Shown here: positions 1 to 46,408 of the stretch, in pieces
Position numbering within the stretch: the stretch's first letter is position 1
How the letters are laid out: each line of letters opens with the position of its first letter
IMG/VR virus record: IMGVR_UViG_3300046373_000017
Location: 1 to 46,408 of that record
From: a virus
Length of the DNA: 46,408 bases
Reading direction: 5' to 3' (one strand)
The notes under the pieces: model-generated
The model's database searches: none
Told to the model about the DNA's origin: nothing
Seen by the model: the letters and a program-made list of their open reading frames with translations, nothing else
Position numbers and translations under genes: made by a program

Positions 1-146
1 GAGAAAATGCGAGCAACTAAGACATGTTGCTTAGTTGGAATTCGCACGCAAGAGAGCTTGAACCGATGGAGGGCAATTCATAGTGATAAAAATAAAAATA
101 AATACAAAGATAACAATTGGACATTATAAATGTATGAAAATGTCTA
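1..146. repeat. Terminal direct repeat, left copy
   Basis: These bases recur at the right end of the window (46263-46408) with a single difference: position 127 is t here and a at 46389. The repeat shows that the sequence is a closed circle or a terminally redundant, permuted genome of about 46,262 bases opened at an arbitrary point. The mismatch matters: in the frame running through the repeat it turns an AAA lysine codon into TAA, so this copy carries a stop that the right copy lacks. Confidence 0.95.
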
Positions 147-831
147 TAACGCTTATCCAATTTATGATTGGTTGGCTGATGACATTTGGATTGCCAATGC
201 AAAATTAGGATGGAATTATAATAATCTTTACGATTTATTTTATATGGCTGGACTAAGTATAGAGCAAATGCGCGTAGCTAGTCCATTTAATGATTGTGCC
301 ATTGAAAGTCTAAAGCTTTATAAGGTAATTGACCCAAAGAACTGGGGAAAAATGATAGGCCGCACTAATGGCGTTAACTTCTCTGGATTGTATGGCGGTA
401 CAACTGCAATGGGATGGCGTAATATTAAATTACCTAAAGGCCACACGTGGAAGTCGTACATGGAATTTTTGTTAACTACATTACCAGAGGAGGCGGCAGA
501 TAATTATAGAAAAAAGCTTGAAGTATCAATTAATTTTTGGAGAGATAAAGGCGGTTGTCTTTCTAGTGAATTAATTTATAAGTTGAAATCATTAAATATT
601 GAGATAGTCGTTAACGATAAAACAAACTATAAAACTAGTAAATTGCCAGTGACAATGAAATATCAAGATGATATTGATATTACTGAATTTACAGAAATAC
701 CGACCTACAAGCGAATGTGTGTAGCAATAATGAAGAACGACCATTTATGCAAAACTCTTGGTTTTTCAGCAACAAAAACAGAAACTCAATTAAGAATACA
801 AGCAGAAAATAAATATAAGGATATTTTATAA
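1..831 (+). CDS. IbrA-like PAPS-reductase-family protein (DUF3440), C-terminal part
   Basis: This is the distal part of the gene that begins at 45813; the frame enters at base 1 in phase with the right-end copy. Joined, the protein is about 426 residues, the usual size for DUF3440/IbrA proteins. In this copy the codon at 127-129 is TAA, where the right-end copy has AAA (Lys), so translation could restart only at ATG 130; I treat the stop as an error or variant. The C-terminus contains IPTYKRMCVAIMKND and LGFS, a segment that also appears in the 88-residue protein at 45593-45859. The stop is one base before the ATG of the ParB-like partner at 833. IbrA relatives are known as co-activators of prophage genes in E. 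coli and share the PP-loop fold of CysH and DndC; the biochemical reaction here is unknown. Confidence 0.85.
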
Positions 832-832
832 A

Positions 833-1336
833 ATGAATTTTAAATCACCAGTCTATAATGTGCTTTCAATACCAATTAACAAAATAAGAGCTAATTCATA
901 TAACCCCAACTCAGTTGCACCGCCTGAAATGGAATTGCTAGAAGTATCTATATGGGAGGATGGATATACAATGCCAGTCGTGGCTTATTACCTGCCTGAT
1001 GAAGATATTTATGAAATTGTAGATGGCTATCATCGCTATACAACTTTAAAAACTAGCAAACGTATTTTTGAGCGCGAAAATGGTATGTTGCCAGTGGTGG
1101 TAATTGCTAAAGATGAATCTAATCGCATGGCTTCTACAATACGCCACAATCGCGCTAGAGGCTCTCATTCTATTGAGTTAATGTCCAACATCGTAACGGA
1201 GCTTACAAAGTCAGGTATGAGCGATGCGTGGATTCTAAAGCATATTGGAATGGATAAAGATGAGCTTTTGCGCTTAAAACAAATCACTGGACTAGCTGAA
1301 TTGTTTAAAGATAAAGAATTTACTTTAGTTAAATAA
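833..1336 (+). CDS. IbrB-like ParB/Srx-fold protein
   Basis: A 167-residue protein with an N-terminal ParB-like nuclease domain (about residues 8-115). It holds the motif EIVDGYHRY near residue 65 and the family's TIRHNRARGSHS segment near 100-111, followed by a short helical tail (GMSDAWILKHIGMDKDELLRL) resembling a helix-turn-helix. The pairing directly after the PAPS-reductase-family gene, with one base between stop and start, is the IbrA-IbrB arrangement known from E. coli prophages, where the pair activates eib genes. The ParB fold binds nucleotides and sometimes cuts DNA. Whether this pair regulates transcription, modifies DNA or counters host defence cannot be told from sequence. Confidence 0.85.
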   Translation: MNFKSPVYNVLSIPINKIRANSYNPNSVAPPEMELLEVSIWEDGYTMPVVAYYLPDEDIYEIVDGYHRYTTLKTSKRIFERENGMLPVVVIAKDESNRMASTIRHNRARGSHSIELMSNIVTELTKSGMSDAWILKHIGMDKDELLRLKQITGLAELFKDKEFTLVK

Positions 1337-1364: not shown

Positions 1365-2399
1365 ATGAAAATACCTGAAAGCACAAACAGCACCATAGCT
1401 TTAATTGACAAATATCACGAGAAACAAAACGAGCAGCCGCCAACACGTTATCATCTAGGAGTTTCAATGCTAGGTGAAAAATGTGATCGTAAATTATGGT
1501 TAAGTTTTAGGTGGGCAGTCCGTGAAAATTTTGAAGGTAGAATCCTTAGATTATTTCGCCGTGGTCATAATGAAGAATCAACCATTGTCAGTGATTTACG
1601 CGCCATTGGCGTAGATATTCGCAACACGACAAGCTCACAGTCGCGTGTTAACTTTGGTAAGCATGTAAGCGGCTCACTAGATGGAATTATTGAAAGCGGA
1701 TTGCCAGAGGCGCCAAAGGCAAGGCACGTAGCGGAATTTAAAACGCATAGTAAAAAATCATTTGATGATTTGGTTAAAAAAGGATTAAAGGAATCTAAAC
1801 CCATACATTGGACACAATTGAATGTCTACATGTATGGAAAGGATATTGACCGAGGATTTTACCTTGCAGTAAATAAAGACAGTGACGAGCTTTACCAAGA
1901 ACGCATAGAACTAGACAAACCAGCCGCCATTAAAGCCATTGAACGCGGTCAAAAAATCACCATGTCAGACCGCATGCCAATTGGGTTAAGCGATGATGAA
2001 ACTTATTATGAATGTAAATTTTGCCCTAATCATTCATTTTGTTTTAAAGAAAAGCTAACTAAAGAAGTAAATTGTCGTACATGTGCGTTTAGTACAGCTA
2101 AAGAAGATTCAACATGGCATTGCACGCGCTGGGATGATGTTATACCAAACGAAGCTCAATATCTTGGCTGTGACAATCATGTATTACATCCTGATTTGGT
2201 GCCATGGGATATCGAAACAGCCCATGATGAATGGCATGCAATTTATATTGTGAACGGCAAGCCAATATTAAATGGTGCTGACGGATACCACTCAAAAGAA
2301 CTGGTCGCCAATCCACAAGCATGTGATGAAAATGATAGATTTGTTGAATCATTACGGTCTGAAATGGGTGCTAGGATAATTGAAAGTGAGGGTGAATGA
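1365..2399 (+). CDS. PD-(D/E)XK exonuclease with Cas4/AddB-type Fe-S cysteines
   Basis: 344 residues, recognised as a RecB/Cas4-like phage exonuclease. The nuclease core shows Asp106 (GSLDGI), then Glu124 and Lys126 in EFKTH, and the QLNVYMYG motif near 151-158 (the QxxxY helix). Four cysteines, Cys40 (EKCDRK) and the triplet Cys217, Cys220 and Cys226 (CxxCx5C), match the iron-sulphur cluster pattern of AddB and Cas4 nucleases. A second cysteine group follows at about 236-273 (CRTC, HCTRW, GCDNH) and may be a separate zinc site. The start has AAAGG upstream. With the Sak4-like ATPase, helicase and VRR-NUC genes it probably supplies end resection for phage recombination. Confidence 0.8.
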   Translation: MKIPESTNSTIALIDKYHEKQNEQPPTRYHLGVSMLGEKCDRKLWLSFRWAVRENFEGRILRLFRRGHNEESTIVSDLRAIGVDIRNTTSSQSRVNFGKHVSGSLDGIIESGLPEAPKARHVAEFKTHSKKSFDDLVKKGLKESKPIHWTQLNVYMYGKDIDRGFYLAVNKDSDELYQERIELDKPAAIKAIERGQKITMSDRMPIGLSDDETYYECKFCPNHSFCFKEKLTKEVNCRTCAFSTAKEDSTWHCTRWDDVIPNEAQYLGCDNHVLHPDLVPWDIETAHDEWHAIYIVNGKPILNGADGYHSKELVANPQACDENDRFVESLRSEMGARIIESEGE

Positions 2400-2828: not shown

Positions 2829-2852
2829 ATGTTAAAAAACAAGGAACAAAAA

Positions 2853-3458
2853 ATGAAAGTATTAAATTTGTATGCAGGACTTGGCGGAAATAGAAAACAT
2901 TGGTCTGGTGTTGACGTTGTTGCGGTTGAGCAGCATCCAAAAATAGCTGCTGTTTACCATGATTTATATCCTAATGATGATGTTGTTTTAGGTGATGCCC
3001 ATGAATATCTTTTAGAACATTACCAAGAGTTTGATTTTATCTGGTCAAGCCCTCCATGCCAAACACATAGCAAGATGAATAAGGCTACCAGGCACAAAAA
3101 AAAACGTTACCCAGATATGGCTTTGTATCAAGAAATAATATTTCTGCAAAACTTTTTTAAAGGTAAATGGATTGTTGAAAATGTAAATCCATATTACGAG
3201 CCGCTAATCCCAGCTAAGAAAATGGGTAGACATTTATTCTGGTCAAACTTCGAATTTGATTATTTTGATGTTGCTAGACCTGCTGGATTTATTAATAAAT
3301 CAAACCTACGTGGAAAAAAAGAATTAATGGATTGGCTAGGAATTCACTATGAAGAAAATATCTATTATGGCTCTAATCACTGCCCAGCACAAATACTTAG
3401 AAATTGCGTACATCCGTTAATTGGCGAACATATATTTAAGGCTGCATCATGCGCTTAA
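2853..3458 (+). CDS. Cytosine-C5 DNA methyltransferase
   Basis: About 201 residues from ATG 2853, chosen because AAGGA lies upstream; an earlier in-frame ATG at 2829 has none. Motif I is LNLYAGLGG, motif IV is SSPPCQTHS with the catalytic cysteine, motif VI is VENVNPYY, and the C-terminus has an ILRNCVHPLIG segment resembling motif X. The protein is well below the roughly 300 residues or more usual for cytosine-C5 enzymes, so its target recognition region is tiny. It would methylate phage DNA, most simply to evade host restriction. No cognate restriction enzyme is adjacent, so it is an orphan. It overlaps the helicase gene by 10 bases. Confidence 0.85.
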   Translation: MKVLNLYAGLGGNRKHWSGVDVVAVEQHPKIAAVYHDLYPNDDVVLGDAHEYLLEHYQEFDFIWSSPPCQTHSKMNKATRHKKKRYPDMALYQEIIFLQNFFKGKWIVENVNPYYEPLIPAKKMGRHLFWSNFEFDYFDVARPAGFINKSNLRGKKELMDWLGIHYEENIYYGSNHCPAQILRNCVHPLIGEHIFKAASCA

Positions 3459-5101
3459 GACCCTATCAAACTCGCGCCGTAGATATGTTGTATGACTGGT
3501 TTAGAAATAATCCAACAGGAAATCCAGTATTAGAATTACCAGGAGGAAGCGGTAAAAGTGTAATCATCGCTTCAATGTGCAAAGATGCTTTAGAGCAATG
3601 GAGCGATACTAAAATATTAATGTGTGTCAACAGTAAAGAATTAATTGCGCAGAACGCTTCTAAGCTTCGCTCAATATGGAAAGGTGCCCCCCTTGGCATT
3701 TATTCAGCCAGTCTAAATAAACGCGAGCTTGGTGAGCCTATTCTGTATGCAGGGATTGGCTCAGTTCTTAACCGCGCTAAACAAATCGGACATATTGATT
3801 TAATGATTGTTGATGAGTGCGATATGATTAGCCACAAGGACGAAGGCGGTTATCGTAAACTAATCGCAGCTTTATTGGAAATTAATCCCAGCATGCGCCT
3901 TGTAGGGCTTACTGCTAGTCCATTTCGTATGGGTCATGGATTAATTACTGATGGAGAAAGCCCGCTATTCAAAGAGATTGTTAAACCAGTTACGATTGAA
4001 GAGTTGGTGCATGACGGATATTTAGCGCCTTTAAGCTCCAAAGCAACCAAACACACATTAAGCACAGAAGGTGTGCATAAGCGCGGAAATGAATACATAG
4101 ATAAAGAGTTACAAGCCGCAGTCGATACAAGTGACAATAACTTGTATGTGGTTAATGAGATTATAGAAAAATCATTTGGACGTAAAAAAGTATTGGTATT
4201 TGCAGCAGGTACGGAACATGCCAAACATTTAACACAGTTACTTAATGAGCGCGGCATGTCGGCAAAGTTTGTTGTTAGCGATATGTTAGACAGTGAGCGA
4301 GATGAAGTATTAAGACAGCATCAAGCAGGTGAAATTAAAGCCGTTGTTAATATTAATATTTTATCAGTAGGCTATGATGACCCTGAAATTGACTGCATTG
4401 CTTTAGTGCGACCTACAATGTCGCCAAGACTGTACCTACAACAAGCGGTGAGGGGTTGTAGACCTGTTTACGCTAATGGCTATGGCTTAGATACTAAAGA
4501 AGGTCGTTTTGCTGCTATGGCAGCAGGAAGCAAGCCAAATGGGTGCCTTGTATTAGATTTTGGCGGTAATGTTGCAGAGCATGGGCCAGTCACAAATATT
4601 CGCCCTCCGCGTAAAGCAGGAAGCGGCAACGGCGAACCACCAGTAAGACTATGTGAAGTATGCAGCGAAATAGTACATATCTCAACACCAATCTGCCCAT
4701 GTTGCGGTACACCATTTCCACCACCTAAAGAGAAATTATTGGTATTGCATACCGATGATATTATGACTGGTTTGAGCGAGCTAGAGGTTAGTTCATGGCA
4801 TTGGAAAAAGCACAAATCAAAAACTAGCGGCATTGAAATGCTAGCCGTGAGTTATTATGGCGGATTGAGTGACCCTGCGATTAATGAGTATATAACCATA
4901 TTACATGACGGTTGGGCTGGTATTAAAGCGCGTAAATTATTAGCAGAAATAGCCAATAAAGCGGAAGTTGAATTAAATTATGATGAAGCTGATTTGGTTG
5001 ATATAGCTGAACTCATGAATAAAGGAAAGCCTCCAGCCTTATTAAATTATAAGCGTGATGGTAAGTTTTTTAAAATCATTGAAAGGAATTACAATGCCTA
5101 G
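3449..5101 (+). CDS. SF2 DEAD/H-type helicase with zinc ribbon
   Basis: 550 residues. Motif I (Walker A) is PGGSGKS at 31-37, motif II is DECD at 122-125, motif III is the LTASPFRMG segment, and motif VI is QQAVRGCRP near 336. A four-cysteine zinc-ribbon-like element (LCEVC, ICPCCG) lies near 395-415 and is followed by an extended C-terminal region. The architecture is that of phage helicases of the type III restriction/RecQ-like branch, used in replication or recombination. The start ATGCGC overlaps the methyltransferase stop, and the end overlaps the next gene by 8 bases, so translation is probably coupled. Confidence 0.88.
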   Translation: MRLRPYQTRAVDMLYDWFRNNPTGNPVLELPGGSGKSVIIASMCKDALEQWSDTKILMCVNSKELIAQNASKLRSIWKGAPLGIYSASLNKRELGEPILYAGIGSVLNRAKQIGHIDLMIVDECDMISHKDEGGYRKLIAALLEINPSMRLVGLTASPFRMGHGLITDGESPLFKEIVKPVTIEELVHDGYLAPLSSKATKHTLSTEGVHKRGNEYIDKELQAAVDTSDNNLYVVNEIIEKSFGRKKVLVFAAGTEHAKHLTQLLNERGMSAKFVVSDMLDSERDEVLRQHQAGEIKAVVNINILSVGYDDPEIDCIALVRPTMSPRLYLQQAVRGCRPVYANGYGLDTKEGRFAAMAAGSKPNGCLVLDFGGNVAEHGPVTNIRPPRKAGSGNGEPPVRLCEVCSEIVHISTPICPCCGTPFPPPKEKLLVLHTDDIMTGLSELEVSSWHWKKHKSKTSGIEMLAVSYYGGLSDPAINEYITILHDGWAGIKARKLLAEIANKAEVELNYDEADLVDIAELMNKGKPPALLNYKRDGKFFKIIERNYNA

Positions 5102-5285
5102 GCACCCAGAGCCCCTCTTCTTCATCCAGTGGCGCGATATAGCCACAAGAACACCACGTATTTGTCACACCTGTGAAAACTATTCCATTGACGGTGTATG
5201 CGCTATAGTCAATATGGAGCCACCAGAAAAACATGCAGCTACAGAAAATGTTTGTGATGATTGGATTTTGGAGGTTGGATTTTGA
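5094..5285 (+). CDS. Small cysteine-containing protein (63 aa)
   Basis: Start chosen at ATG 5094, preceded by GAAAGGA. It overlaps the helicase end by 8 bases and its own stop overlaps the next ATG as TGATG. Cysteines occur in ICHTCENY, VCAIV and VCDDW, spaced as in a small zinc-binding fold; the ICHTCENYSIDGVCAI pattern is typical of small phage proteins of unknown role. No function assigned. Confidence 0.6.
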   Translation: MPRHPEPLFFIQWRDIATRTPRICHTCENYSIDGVCAIVNMEPPEKHAATENVCDDWILEVGF

Positions 5286-5650
5286 TGGAAAAAGAAAAAC
5301 TACCTAGCGAACACCTAGAGCAAGTTCGACTTGTTTCATGGATGCGAAAAACATATCCACAGCACCGCATATTCGCAGTAGCCAATGGCGGATTACGAAC
5401 CGCTTCAACTGCCATGAATCTAACCGCAGAAGGCGTCACAAGAGGCATCCCAGATATTCAAATACCTAGCTTAAAGCTGTTCATTGAGATGAAGCGCCAA
5501 AAAGGTGGCGTAGTTTCACCAGAGCAAAAAGATTGGATTGAATATTTAAATTCAATTGGCTATAACGCTGTTATCTGCAAAGGTTTTGAAGCCGCAAAGC
5601 TGGAAGTTTTAAAGGCTGTAGAGGTTGATAATTTAACTATTTATAAATAA
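5285..5650 (+). CDS. VRR-NUC domain nuclease
   Basis: 121 residues. The stand-alone VRR-NUC fold is recognised from HLEQVRLVSWMRKTYP at the start, the NGG segment (AVANGGLRT), RGIPDIQIP with the metal-binding Asp, and IEMKRQKGG (E-x-K of the PD-(D/E)XK core), ending with a helical GYNAVICKGFEAAK. Viral VRR-NUC proteins cut branched DNA, including Holliday junctions in some members. Its place after the helicase fits processing of recombination or packaging intermediates. It starts on a TGATG overlap with the preceding small gene and is the last gene before the promoter at 5651. Confidence 0.85.
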   Translation: MEKEKLPSEHLEQVRLVSWMRKTYPQHRIFAVANGGLRTASTAMNLTAEGVTRGIPDIQIPSLKLFIEMKRQKGGVVSPEQKDWIEYLNSIGYNAVICKGFEAAKLEVLKAVEVDNLTIYK

Positions 5651-31153: not shown

Positions 31154-31882
31154 TTAATTGAAGCCAGTTAAACGAACAGCAACTAAACCACCGCCGCCAG
31201 CATCTGGGTATTTGTAGATTGTCGCGTTAGCAATAATCGCATTTGTTGCACTTGCCGCCGCTGTAGGAGCAATAGCTGTCAATGCGCCAGTAACAACGTT
31301 GTATTGCACTTGGTCACCAATGTTAGCAGAGCCAGACGCTAAGTTAGCGCAGATTGTACCCATTGTTAAGAACTCGCCTTGTGAGTTATCAGTGATGTTC
31401 AATGTTGGTGTTAATGTACCAGCAGTTGTACCAATTGAAGCGTATGTTTTAGGATTAACTAAAATACCCGCGTAAGCAGTAGGAGCACCACCTGAGCCAG
31501 TGACAGCACCACTTGAGAACGTTTGTGATACAGCAACAGTGTATGTACCTACGCCACCTGAACCAGTTAGATAACCAGTAACCAAGCATGGGGTAGTAAT
31601 ACCTGCCAATGTTTGACCGATTTGAATTGAGCCAGAAGCTACAGCCGTGACAGTCATGGTTGTTGTTGCAATAGAGGCTGTGAATGAGCTTGTACCACCA
31701 CCAACAACACCACCAAGAGAGGCAACGCCTGTTAATGTGTTCTTAGTGAAAGCAAAGCCAACCGTATTACCAGCGCCATTTGAGTTAACAATCATTGTTT
31801 CGACACGTAATGGGCCTTCAAAGATTAACTCACCTGGCACACCAAATGCCAAGTTGATATTTACCGCAGATTGCAATGACAT
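31154..31882 (-). CDS. Capsid cement/decoration protein, gp24-like (242 aa)
   Basis: N-terminus [20 protein letters not shown] and C-terminal [18 protein letters not shown] are typical of structural cement proteins next to DUF2184 capsids. The middle (about 60-140) holds a Gly/Ser/Thr domain ([38 protein letters not shown]) that recurs in other phage virion proteins and looks inserted. It probably stabilises the shell and displays this extra domain outside. Confidence 0.8.
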
Positions 31883-33567
31883 TATTTATCCCCTTTTTTG
31901 AGATATTTTTTAACAAAATTACCTTTACTTGCCGTGTCCATTGCCACTGCGTGTGAAGGTTCGCCTTTACCTTGAAGGTATGCATTCAAGAATGTTACGC
32001 GAGATTCTTTTGGTGCATCTACACCTAGCTTTTTCAAGCCATATTTAGCCATATCATTTAAACTCATTTCAGCATGGTCAAACGCGCCGATATGTTTAGA
32101 TAGGGTGTTATATAATTTAGACTTAATTGCGATTTCAGCAGTTACTTGGCGAGCAATTTCCGCTGCATCCATACCGCTAGATTTATCAGCTTTATTGTCG
32201 TCTTTTTTCTCTTTGTCATCGTCACTGTCTTCTGTAGCTTTGTCACCTTTAGCTGGCATTTTATCATCGCCATCAGGTTCTTTTTCATCAGCGTCAATAG
32301 CGACTTCTGCCTCGCCACCTTCACTGCCACCGATTAAACCTTGAATCTTGGTAATAATCGGCATGATTTGTTTAATTGCTTCGGCAGCTTCTTCCAGCGT
32401 CATGCTAGAATTGCCACCGCTTTCGTTCTCTTGTTCAGCCATAATGTTGAATTCCTTTGCATCAACGGTGAAATTAAATAGCTCTAGATGGTCTAGAACC
32501 GCTACATCAGCACCCATGCGACCATGGTCTACGAGGGCTAAATGATTGCCACGAATATTTCTTTGTATGCAATCATAAGGCTGTCCCTCGAATACACCCG
32601 AAGTCCACTCATAAGTACATCTATACCCGCACGACAATTCTTTTTTACCTGAATCAATGAGTGTTCTCAATGCCTCAGAAAATACTTTGATATTACCATA
32701 AAGCGTGCCATCAGAGAAATATACATCTTCACCAATAACACCTTGTACGCCCTTTTGTTCCGAAGGGGTTAAGCCTACATCCTCACTACCTAGCATCACA
32801 TGGTTATCAATCCATGGTAGTAGCTTAAATGAATTTAAACACTCGACATCCGCTAATTCTTCGGCAGGGCGGTAAACACTATACATCTTATCTTGTTCTG
32901 GCGCGTCTGGCAGAGAGTGTCCAGAATATTGGAATACGCCGACCTTAGATAATGGATTGCTTTTTACTTCAAACCATCCATTAAGGTCGTATTCTCTTTT
33001 GTCCATTGCTTTTGATATTGCTTCTTTGACCATATCCATTCCCGTAGCGATTTGCGCGACTTCTTCCATTTGCTTTTCAATTTTCGGAAACAATGGTTCA
33101 GGAGCGTCCTCCAAACTCGCCCATAAGAATGCATCATGTTCATCATTGAGTTGTGGTAAGAACTCTCCATCTTCACATCCGTATAGCCTAATCTTGCCAG
33201 ATTTGTAAATAAGTGTTAAGCCTTCATTAGGAACATGTAATACTTCTTCACGGCTTTCACGAATAGCGCCTTCAATAGGGCTTTCACCTTCTTCTACATG
33301 CCCACCAGGAAAGCCCCATGAGTTATCCTTGGTGCGTCTTAGCCATAGAATCTTATCGCCATCCGTGTAAATGATGAATGCAACTAAGTTACTGTCTGGC
33401 TCTTCGTGTAAATCACGTTCATGCGATTCATCCTTGTCAATGCCAGTAGATTTTCTAGCTTCACTATAGGCAGCCGCAACAGCTTGAGCTTTTGAATGCC
33501 CGGCTTTAATCATCTCAGCAATATTGTGAGAGATAACCTGTTTTGATGAACCGCTTTCTAGTGGCAT
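31882..33567 (-). CDS. Nudix / DUF2213 prohead protease / scaffold-like fusion (561 aa)
   Basis: Three modules can be seen. Residues 8-40 ([20 protein letters not shown]) resemble a short DUF6496-like segment. Residues about 60-175 form a Nudix domain: GGHVEEGES then REsrEE at 103-108, with the usual Gly after EE replaced by Leu110. Residues about 192-370 are a DUF2213 prohead protease, with LSCGY (Ser312) and [10 protein letters not shown] (His342). Residues 424-468 are strongly acidic and the tail is helical, as in scaffolds. It likely scaffolds and then cleaves capsid proteins; the Nudix part may hydrolyse a nucleotide. Confidence 0.82.
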
Positions 33568-43283: not shown

Positions 43284-43340
43284 GAATTCACTCGCCGAAT
43301 AGATTACTGACTGGCGTTAATTAAAATGGAGTTGCACATA

Positions 43341-44090
43341 ATGGCTATTTCACTAGACAGTATTAAAAAAGGCAAGAATTTACGTCCACCGCGTATTTTC
43401 TTATATTCAACGCATGGCATTGGCAAATCTACATTTGCCAGTCAATCACCTAATCCAATTTTTATCTGTGCAGAGGATGGCTTAGACGCTTTAGATGTAA
43501 GTTATTTTCCTGTAGCTAAATCCAGCCAAGATGTAATGGATATGTTGCAAATTCTTTACACTGACGATCATGAATTTCAAACCGTAGTATTAGATACTGC
43601 TGACTGGTTAGAAAACGTATTAATCAATGAAATTGAAACGACTTATGACGCTAAAGAGTTGGCTTATGGTAAACAAGCCATGTTCCTGGCTGAAAAATGG
43701 CGCGAAATTTTAGAAGGTTTTAATGCGTTACGTAATGACAAAGGCATGAATGTCATTTTGATTGGTCACAGTGAGATTAAACGCTTTGATAGTCCAGAGG
43801 TTGATAGCTATGACCGTTACCAGCCAAAACTACAAACACGCTCAAGCACATTGATTCAAGAATGGGCTGATTGTGTATTCTTTGCCAATTATAAAACAGT
43901 TGTGACTAAAGAAGATGTTGGCTTTAATAAAGAACGTAGCCGAGCGATTAGCAATGGGCAGCGTATGATTTTCACACAAGAAAAACCAGCTTACTTGGCT
44001 AAAAACCGATACTCACTCCCTGAAAGCTTTAAGCTTGATTGGGATTCTTATAATGATGCAATTACTAAGGCGATTTCACAAAATGGCTAA
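43341..44090 (+). CDS. Sak4-like ATPase (249 aa)
   Basis: RecA-core protein of the phage AAA_24/Sak4 type. The P-loop is THGIGKST (residues 24-31), Walker B is TVVLDTADW near 86-94, and MNVILIGHSEIKRF is the third core strand. Start at ATG 43341 with GGAG upstream; a longer frame begins inside that site. Sak4 proteins promote annealing of single strands with help from a single-strand binding protein; DUF669 nearby may be that partner. Confidence 0.85.
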   Translation: MAISLDSIKKGKNLRPPRIFLYSTHGIGKSTFASQSPNPIFICAEDGLDALDVSYFPVAKSSQDVMDMLQILYTDDHEFQTVVLDTADWLENVLINEIETTYDAKELAYGKQAMFLAEKWREILEGFNALRNDKGMNVILIGHSEIKRFDSPEVDSYDRYQPKLQTRSSTLIQEWADCVFFANYKTVVTKEDVGFNKERSRAISNGQRMIFTQEKPAYLAKNRYSLPESFKLDWDSYNDAITKAISQNG

Positions 44091-44608: not shown

Positions 44609-45154
44609 ATGGCAAGTTTAGATATGGAATACAACGTTGATGAATTACCAGTAGGGCAAGGATATGACCTCATCCCTGCGGGTTGGTATGAAGCCAATAT
44701 CACAAAAGCAGAGATTAAGAAAACAACGGCTGGCACAGGTCAATACATTGCAATTCGTTATGATATTACTGGCCCATCACAAGAAGGTCGTGTGGTATTT
44801 GGCAATATCAATATCAAAAATCCTTCAAGCATTGCTGAAAATATTGGCCGCCAACAACTTGGAGAAATTATGCGAGCTATTGGCTTGGCTAAAGTTGTTG
44901 ACAGCGATGAATTGCTTGGCGGTAGTTTGATAATTAAAGTTGGTATTGGTAAGCCACAATACGAACTTAACGCCAAAAAAGAACTTATTTTAGATTCTAA
45001 TGGCGACAAAATTATCAAGTACGAAGCTCAAAATGAAGTAACTGGCTTTAAATCATTAGATGGTGCTGAAATGCCAGAGGCTAAGAAAGAAGCTAAGTCA
45101 TCAACTTCTGAAAATTCTGGTGCTGAAAAAAAGAAAGCACCTTGGTTGAAGTAA
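44609..45154 (+). CDS. DUF669 single-strand-binding-like protein (181 aa)
   Basis: Recognised by LIPAGWYEANITKAEIKKTT, YIAIRYDITGPSQEGRVVFG, NIKNPSSIAENIGRQQLGEI and a flexible charged tail ending KKKAPWLK. DUF669 proteins accompany Sak4-type annealases and are thought to bind single strands; the acidic or lysine-rich tail may recruit partners. AAAGGAAATAAA forms the ribosome binding site. Confidence 0.82.
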   Translation: MASLDMEYNVDELPVGQGYDLIPAGWYEANITKAEIKKTTAGTGQYIAIRYDITGPSQEGRVVFGNINIKNPSSIAENIGRQQLGEIMRAIGLAKVVDSDELLGGSLIIKVGIGKPQYELNAKKELILDSNGDKIIKYEAQNEVTGFKSLDGAEMPEAKKEAKSSTSENSGAEKKKAPWLK

Positions 45155-45243: not shown

Positions 45244-45645
45244 ATGAAAAGAAAATTTCACCACTATGAAAAATGGGAAGACTTTAAAAACGGTATGTAC
45301 GAAAATATGCAAGGAAGAGATAGACGAATTATGCTAAACCGCGCTATTACATTTATGGGCAATGCGGAATTATTTGGTGAATTTATGATGAAAGTTATTA
45401 GTGAATGGCCTGTTAGTTGTGAACAAAACTTAACTGATAAAAATACTAATAATCAGCCGTGGATTGGTCAAGCAGCTTGTTGTATGGCTATTAAATGTCC
45501 AGAAGATGTTACGCGTGAAGCATGGGGATTTTTAAGCAAGCAGCAACAATTAGAAGCAAACGAAAAGGCAGATTTAGCAATTAAGGCGTGGAATGAAAAA
45601 CAAAATAATAAGATACATTCGCAAGTGGGAAAAGCAGGGTTATGA
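45244..45645 (+). CDS. Hypothetical early protein (133 aa)
   Basis: MKRKFHHYEKWEDFKNGMYE opens the sequence, then NRAITFMGNAELFGEFMMKV, SEWPVSCEQNLTDKNTNNQP and WIGQAACCMAIKCPEDVTRE. Proteins with this KWEDxxNGM start and a Trp-Pro-x-Ser-Cys-Glu segment occur next to IbrA-like genes in phages as I recall, but I know no function. It overlaps the next gene by 53 bases. Confidence 0.6.
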   Translation: MKRKFHHYEKWEDFKNGMYENMQGRDRRIMLNRAITFMGNAELFGEFMMKVISEWPVSCEQNLTDKNTNNQPWIGQAACCMAIKCPEDVTREAWGFLSKQQQLEANEKADLAIKAWNEKQNNKIHSQVGKAGL

Positions 45646-45859
45646 AAACGGAATACCAGACGAAGCGCCAGCAAAACTTGAAGCTTTAAATAAAGTTCCT
45701 TCATACAGAATGATATGCAAAGCCATACTTAAAAATGATTTAGCACTAATAAGTTTAGGATTTTCAAAACCAAAATCAAAAGCTTATAGTATGTTAAAAA
45801 GGATTGAATTAAATGAACGTATACGAAGCATCGCAGCAAAGATTAAAAACGATATTTGA
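45593..45859 (+). CDS. Small IbrA-tail-like protein (88 aa)
   Basis: Contains NKVPSYRMICKAILKND followed by LISLGFSKPK, matching the C-terminal EIPTYKRMCVAIMKND and LGFSATK of the IbrA-like protein (end at 831). The rest is basic and helical (RKWEKQGYENGIPDEAPAK). It starts inside the upstream gene and overlaps the IbrA start by 47 bases, so all three genes are co-translated. It may be a free copy of the tail that acts with IbrA. Confidence 0.7.
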   Translation: MKNKIIRYIRKWEKQGYENGIPDEAPAKLEALNKVPSYRMICKAILKNDLALISLGFSKPKSKAYSMLKRIELNERIRSIAAKIKNDI

Positions 45860-46408
45860 TGAATTTGATAATACATATGTATCATTTTCAGGCGGTAAAG
45901 ATAGTGGGGTTTTACTAAATCTAGCTATTGATTATATTCGTGCCAATAAATTAAATAGGCGTATCGGTGTATTTCATATTGACTATGAAGCTCAGTATCA
46001 AATGACAACTGATTATGTTGATTTAGAACTAGAAAAAAATAAAGATATTATTGATGTATATCGTATTTGCTTGCCACTGGCGGCTCAGTGCGCAACGTCA
46101 ATGCATCAATCATATTGGTTGCCTTGGGAAAAAGATAAAAAAGAATTATGGGTACGTGGTTTATCTGTAAATTCAATCAATGAATCAAACCATCAATTTG
46201 AATGGTTTGAGCAAGGTATGTGGGATTATGAGTTGCAGGAAAGATTTTCAAAATGGTATCACGAGAAAATGCGAGCAACTAAGACATGTTGCTTAGTTGG
46301 AATTCGCACGCAAGAGAGCTTGAACCGATGGAGGGCAATTCATAGTGATAAAAATAAAAATAAATACAAAGATAACAATTGGACATTAAAAATGTATGAA
46401 AATGTCTA
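45813..46408 (+). CDS. IbrA-like PAPS-reductase-family protein (DUF3440), N-terminal part
   Basis: Reads through the right end and continues at 1-831. SGGKDSG at residues 26-32 is the PP-loop that binds ATP or PAPS-like adenylate. HIDYEAQYQMTTDYV, LPWEKDKKELWVRGLS and the paired cysteines of KTCCLVGIRTQESLNR follow, all typical of DUF3440 (IbrA). PP-loop enzymes of this branch include CysH and DndC. Paired with the ParB-like IbrB at 833. Substrate unknown. Confidence 0.88.
   Translation, partial: MNVYEASQQRLKTIFDEFDNTYVSFSGGKDSGVLLNLAIDYIRANKLNRRIGVFHIDYEAQYQMTTDYVDLELEKNKDIIDVYRICLPLAAQCATSMHQSYWLPWEKDKKELWVRGLSVNSINESNHQFEWFEQGMWDYELQERFSKWYHEKMRATKTCCLVGIRTQESLNRWRAIHSDKNKNKYKDNNWTLKMYENV
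46263..46408. repeat. Terminal direct repeat, right copy
   Basis: Copy of 1-146, with an A at 46389 where the left copy has T at 127. This version keeps the IbrA frame open (AAA Lys), so I take it as the intact allele. It sets the unique length at 46,262 bases. Confidence 0.95.

Follow-up and report, generated by a model that had tools for sequence, protein, structure and literature searches.

An IbrA-IbrB gene pair with two phage-specific partners as a possible DNA-modification module of phages

The stretch of DNA analysed here (the window) is the whole of IMG/VR virus record IMGVR_UViG_3300046373_000017, 46,408 nucleotides long. It is one phage genome, with a GC content of 37% and with TerL, portal and capsid genes; the best matches of its TerL, at about 54%, are to Klebsiella and Edwardsiella phages. 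Its ends overlap by 146 bp, bases 1-146 being the same as bases 46263-46408 with one mismatch at position 127, which is a T in the start copy and an A in the end copy. The IbrA ORF (Table 1) runs off the contig end, and in the start copy the T gives an in-frame TAA at bases 127-129. When the two parts were joined via the end copy (45813-46408 + 147-831), an open IbrA of 426 aa was obtained. As assembled, the contig is either circular or redundant at its ends, so that IbrA spans the contig ends, and the TAA of the start copy was taken to be a variant or an error because IbrA homologues read through that point. The change at position 127, which makes or removes this stop codon, may be genuine variation between strains of the virus population; in three other viral loci (L071, L091 and L150) the IbrA frame is likewise broken or divided into two ORFs.

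Table 1. Features of the window discussed in the text
Feature	Position	Strand	Remarks
Start copy of terminal overlap	1..146	+	T at 127 puts TAA inside IbrA
IbrA, C-terminal part (DUF3440)	147..831	+	in frame from 46408; DUF3440 7.2e-88
IbrB	833..1336	+	167 aa; ParB/sulfiredoxin fold, HTH-like tail; starts 1 nt after IbrA stop
Cas4-type exonuclease	1365-2399		
Truncated C5-MTase	2829-3458		209 aa
SF2 helicase	3449-5101		
VRR-NUC	5261-5650		
Structural-module protein	31882-33567	-	NUDIX domain fused to DUF2213
Sak4	43326-44090		
DUF669	44609-45154		
orf45244	45244..45645	+	133 aa; all-helical (AF2 model); phage-specific partner; linkage with IbrA and/or IbrB
miniC	45593..45859	+	88 aa; stand-alone C-terminal DUF3440 piece 'GIPDE...PSYRxIC.AILKND'; PF11922 1.7e-5; PHROG 15645 2.2e-11
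IbrA, N-terminal part	45813..46408	+	PP-loop SGGKDS, GIRxQES motif; PF01507 and DUF3440 in joined protein

The initial annotation had described an IbrA/IbrB pair within a recombination and methylation module, and profile searches confirmed both the pair and the neighbours that it named (Sak4, DUF669, Cas4-type exonuclease, C5-MTase, SF2 helicase and VRR-NUC). The joined IbrA matched PF11922 (DUF3440) with 293.5 bits (cut-off 25), which places it in the IbrA/DUF3440 family, and PF01507 (PAPS_reduct) with 44.1 bits (cut-off 22.5), and IbrB matched PHROG 2159 with an E-value of 1.9e-76. The linkage of the pair to the methyltransferase and nuclease genes, in contrast, did not hold. No C5-MTase-like ORF was found in the available flanks of 151 related loci by a test of the PPCQ/ENV motifs only, and homologues of the window's Sak4, DUF669, Cas4-exonuclease, MTase, SF2 and VRR genes were each present in 0-2 of the 71 IMG/VR IbrA loci listed; methyltransferase, helicase and nuclease were thus rejected as conserved partners. 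The C5-type methyltransferase of the window matches approximately the first 112 of 324 Pfam positions, and its target-recognition half seems to be missing.

The conserved partners of the pair are two ORFs which that first reading had overlooked, orf45244 and miniC. We found no family for orf45244 in Pfam, PHROG or NCBIfam (0 of 22 members had a PHROG). Its AF2 model (pLDDT 93) gave no meaningful match in fold searches (PDB, Foldseek, VIA), which carries little weight for a helical protein; novelty of the fold is therefore not claimed. Its third codon positions vary most, and both ORFs are genes. They recur together in 23 of the 71 IMG/VR IbrA loci listed. An independent IMG/VR scan with orf45244 gave at least 80 loci, with IbrA and/or IbrB in every one listed; among the 80 listed, the four genes were complete in 75, only the miniC match was missing in three and either IbrA or IbrB was missing in two. 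The 63 new loci listed in a scan with miniC all had orf45244 plus IbrA and/or IbrB. In the annotated phage collection orf45244 occurred in six records, each with an IbrA relative, and IbrA relatives were present in only 211 of 50,697 records. Among 84,980 bacterial and archaeal genomes orf45244 was found in one contig (a MAG), where IbrA and IbrB adjoin it. IbrB itself was near IbrA in 68 of the 71 relatives listed, the other three being apparently cut by contig ends. In the data seen, orf45244 is therefore an obligate partner of IbrAB, and the conserved unit is orf45244-miniC-IbrA-IbrB. Gene 6 of Chlorobiaceae phage CV-1-33 was considered as a divergent orf45244 and rejected, for it had no HMM support.

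The locus sets were redundant and had been retrieved by conserved patterns. Gene architectures were compared in 132 loci, non-redundant at 90% IbrB identity, a sample biased towards orf45244 because three scans began from this gene or its partners. IbrA-IbrB alone was the arrangement of 29 loci and the window's type, orf-miniC-IbrA-IbrB, that of 22. An EctC-like gene was present in IbrA-EctC~IbrB-orf-miniC, with EctC fused to IbrB (19 loci), and in its unfused counterpart IbrA-EctC-IbrB-orf-miniC (12 loci); loci with a short IbrA were arranged as IbrB-orf-short IbrA (19) or orf-short IbrA-IbrB (8). The GIPDE domain is the own C-terminus of short IbrA, while in long IbrA the C-terminus has diverged and a separate miniC is found when orf45244 is present. 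One locus (L040) encodes miniC and IbrA as a single protein, with miniC at the front, and another (L078, 193-4120) holds long IbrA, IbrB, orf45244 and short IbrA together, suggesting that miniC may be the remnant of a short IbrA that lost its PP-loop part, with the latter locus as a possible intermediate.

Where upstream DNA was available, a SNF2 helicase gene lay directly upstream of IbrA in 43 of 47 loci without orf45244 but in none of 89 with it. Similarly, among 54 fresh contigs found by IbrB, 24 had orf45244, 22 had SNF2 and none had both. The tree of long IbrA accounted for the switch of partner with about 2-3 changes, at least two of them on well-supported branches; the mutual exclusion is striking, yet it rests on few evolutionary events. 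In the distant Flavobacterium phage FCV-1 a SNF2 gene is also found just upstream of the IbrAB pair, and this association may partly reflect the site of IbrAB insertion in replication modules.

The IbrA of a close relative (L003) was modelled with a pLDDT of 85. Fold matches barely covered the C-terminal domain, so the statements on fold refer to the N-domain, for which the best matches were FAD synthase (Z 16.7), CysD (15.6) and APS/PAPS reductases (14-15.5), with lower values (Z 10-12.5) for TilS, thiolases and LarE. Superposition on Vibrio CysH (Z 14.5, 181 aligned residues, rmsd 3.5) showed that the CysH fold is present. The PP-loop and the GIRxQESxxR motif were invariant or nearly so across IbrA sequences, whereas the catalytic cysteine motif ECG(L/I)H was absent in all 48 sequences compared and no cysteine was invariant across the IbrA types (C86, C390 and C400 each vary). 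This combination favours a predicted adenylating enzyme over sulphur chemistry. The link to sulphur transfer that the initial annotation saw in the fold is weakened accordingly, and sulphate reduction was rejected because the catalytic motif is missing. Phosphorothioation by a DndC-like enzyme was also rejected, since the score of the modelled IbrA with TIGR03183 was too low (23.6 bits against a cut-off of 290.4) and the cysteines are not conserved. In the excerpts of the publications that name IbrA/IbrB or DUF3440 no mechanism is given, and those of the large NAR reappraisals of PT/BREX systems do not mention IbrA.

IbrB scored 24.4 bits with Pfam ParB_N, slightly below the cut-off of 26.3. 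When its profile was compared with the PDB, the best matches were Noc (1e-4) and ParB (9e-4), with weaker ones to the serine kinases SbnI (0.03) and SerK (0.16). The GERR-type motif of the ParB CTPases is replaced in IbrB by DGxHR (DGYHR in the motif test), and the protein does not qualify as a ParB CTPase; both DGxHR and TIRHNRARG were invariant.

Many relatives add an ectoine-synthase-like (EctC) cupin, often fused to IbrB; neither the window nor the majority of the loci have this cupin. The viral EctC proteins matched PF06339 with E-values down to 8e-40 and keep the iron ligands E57, Y84 and H92 as well as S23, R25, T40 and Y52. W21 and the substrate-carboxylate residue N38, substrate-site residues as defined in PMC6344544, were replaced in all 92 distinct sequences, which separates these proteins from ectoine synthase. 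IbrB was found in 73 of the 75 newly fetched viral EctC loci listed, the other two being cut by contig ends. With its substrate site changed and the gene bound to the cassette, a role in making ectoine as an osmolyte was rejected.

Relatives of the pair in actinophages were informative about function. In Bclasvirinae mycobacteriophages and Gordonia Sourvirus the genome begins, immediately ahead of TerL, RuvC and portal, with a cassette whose head gene belongs to one ParB-like family. In TA17A and Quesadilla the order ParB-DpdA-QueC-QueD-QueE-FolE precedes TerL, and Rosebush, the type phage of the genus of TA17A, carries dPreQ0 in about 28% of G (PMC6884629). The ParB head is followed by a Tet_JBP oxygenase and ADDT (amino acid:DNA transferase) in Mithril and LittleMunchkin, and by Tet_JBP and TAGT (TET-associated glycosyltransferase) in Baee, the Tet_JBP scores in these three phages falling short of the Pfam cut-off. 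The same slot before TerL reads ParB-gp2-gp3-IbrA-IbrB in Bernardo (Pipefishvirus), where gp2 and gp3 are small ORFs. Bernardo gp1 shares 46-50% identity with the ParB heads of these modifying phages and Bernardo TerL 58-60% with theirs, and no further DNA-modification gene is annotated in the 20-68 kb region of Bernardo. Such enzymes are missing from the slot in Chah and Zenteno07, and neither phage has an annotated ParB head. In Arthrobacter phage Salgado, a ParB head 44.6% identical to Bernardo gp1 is followed by IbrA-IbrB and then by an annotated methyltransferase and TerL, the latter with no detectable similarity to that of Bernardo. Salgado gp2 (L386, 11-1207) contains two tandem matches to the ParB-head family, of which a second member, in single copy, follows three genes later.

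Because IbrAB fills the slot of proven or recognised modification enzymes behind a shared ParB head, we read it as concerned with DNA modification, and the simplest reading of these gene orders is that it would be one more exchangeable DNA-modification cassette. The initial annotation had raised an undescribed DNA modification as one option, and the occupation of this syntenic slot in sister mycobacteriophages makes it now the best reading. Bernardo IbrA was only 25% identical to that of the window over 272 aa and had no DUF3440 match, and no homologue of the gp1 head was found in the window or in the IMG/VR IbrAB loci examined. For these reasons we infer, rather than observe, that the function extends from the actinophages to the window, and in the lack of a gp1 head the window cassette may be said to work like a ParB-headed modification cassette, not to be one.

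Taken together, the anatomy and linkage of the locus, the folds, the fusions, the exclusion of partners and the occupied actinophage slot are best explained if orf45244-miniC-IbrA-IbrB is a module that modifies phage DNA, or a DNA precursor, via an intermediate adenylated by IbrA, a proposal that may well be right. IbrA, with its CysD/FAD-synthase/PAPS-reductase fold, would use ATP to adenylate a substrate. IbrB would be the DNA-binding component, and an NTP may serve it in targeting or loading the reaction. orf45244 and the GIPDE domain, the latter within short IbrA or as separate miniC beside long IbrA, would form a dedicated assembly or targeting subunit in place of the SNF2 helicase of other phages, and the EctC-like cupin, where present, could further convert the small group added. 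We put forward more tentatively the wider proposal that IbrA-IbrB with orf45244/miniC, and EctC in some cases, could use PP-loop adenylation to modify DNA, at a base or in the backbone, by a chemistry not yet described, in phages of many hosts; until now these genes would have been wrongly annotated as sulphate reduction, ectoine synthesis or plasmid partition.

Against DNA modification stand the bacterial homologues. These homologues include ybdNM of E. coli; ibrAB-like loci occur in 1913 of the 5426 complete E. coli genomes, and the parts of the literature available tie bacterial IbrAB homologues to gene regulation rather than to DNA modification; 65 of the E. coli places are on plasmids. 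The pair could thus be a regulator that co-activates phage or prophage transcription, with IbrB binding DNA and IbrA acting beside it as a co-factor that adenylylates or senses nucleotides. The original naming, as far as the excerpted source states, was for an island that activates prophage eib genes; YbdM is a predicted transcription factor, and IbrB joins a ParB-like domain to its HTH-like tail. We consider this unlikely, as it leaves unexplained both a cupin fused to IbrB with its iron ligands intact and the occupancy of the terminase-side slot of the DpdA and TET cassettes, and any gene activation could follow indirectly from DNA modification.

An enzyme of counter-defence or nucleotide signalling, where IbrA would adenylate or remove a host immune signal or nucleotide and IbrB would sense DNA or act as an NTPase, agrees with the position of the window pair among recombination genes, the adenylyl-transferase fold of IbrA and the phage-specific helper protein. 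It appears improbable: neither IbrA nor IbrB matched PADLOC, a defence library and for that reason only weakly informative, and the synteny at the terminase favours DNA modification, itself a form of counter-defence. The EctC-like enzyme, which acts on small molecules, also fits a metabolic route, and we give a similarly low probability to RNA/tRNA modification or an amino-acid-derived small-molecule pathway in which IbrA activates, EctC cyclises and IbrB phosphorylates like SerK. The retained iron residues and part of the substrate site of EctC, and a SerK-type DGxHR in IbrB, are in its favour, but EctC is missing from the window and most loci, the SerK match is weak (20 bits against a cut-off of 380) and the HTH-like tail of IbrB is conserved. 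Finally, auxiliary metabolic genes for cysH-type sulphate reduction and ectoine osmoprotection, as in virome annotation, are suggested by the database names PAPS reductase and ectoine synthase and by published readings of this kind, at least in the passages available, and are very improbable in view of an IbrA without ECGxH or an invariant Cys, the replaced W21 and N38 of EctC and the presence of IbrB in nearly all the viral EctC loci listed.

Returning to DNA modification by the module, the window pair was compared with known systems. Two of them, DpdA/DpdB and DndC/DndB, speak for such a role, since each joins a modifying enzyme to a protein of the ParB superfamily. E. coli ECOR-9 IbrA/IbrB and chromosomal YbdN/YbdM have the same PP-loop and DUF3440 protein beside a ParB-like IbrB, the E. 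coli pair being linked, in the source as excerpted, to prophage gene activation. The IbrA of PhiR5_2 is 32% identical to that of the window over 412 aa; the GIPDE domain is part of this PhiR5_2 protein, in contrast to the long IbrA and separate miniC of the window, and the ibrAB neighbourhood of PhiR5_2 showed no orf45244 or EctC match. The Dpd system for 7-deazaguanine DNA modification in Rosebush-type phages (DpdA with the ParB-like DpdB) likewise places a ParB-superfamily protein with a DNA-modifying enzyme, and its slot and gp1 head are homologous to those of the Pipefishvirus IbrAB; however, IbrA is a PP-loop enzyme and not a transglycosylase, the Bernardo slot has no preQ0 genes and a gp1 head is missing from the window. 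Phosphorothioation systems (DndC/DndB, SspD) resemble the pair in that a PP-loop enzyme of PAPS-reductase fold accompanies a ParB-superfamily protein (Dnd), and differ in that IbrA scores below the DndC model cut-off and lacks invariant cysteines that could hold an Fe-S cluster. The EctC-like proteins of the relatives share the iron ligands of ectoine synthase and differ from it at W21 and N38 and in being fused or adjacent to IbrB.

IbrA and IbrB are known but little-understood proteins, and orf45244 and miniC are undescribed phage-specific helpers. Phage PAPS reductase (cysH) is counted among the globally conserved 'core' auxiliary metabolic genes in the available text of Kieft et al. (2020), and viral ectoine synthase is read as an osmolyte gene in the literature as excerpted. 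On present evidence, the DUF3440-type 'cysH' and its EctC partner are instead parts of a DNA-linked cassette, and the swap of cassettes in the slot of isolated, genetically tractable mycobacteriophages opens IbrAB function to direct testing.
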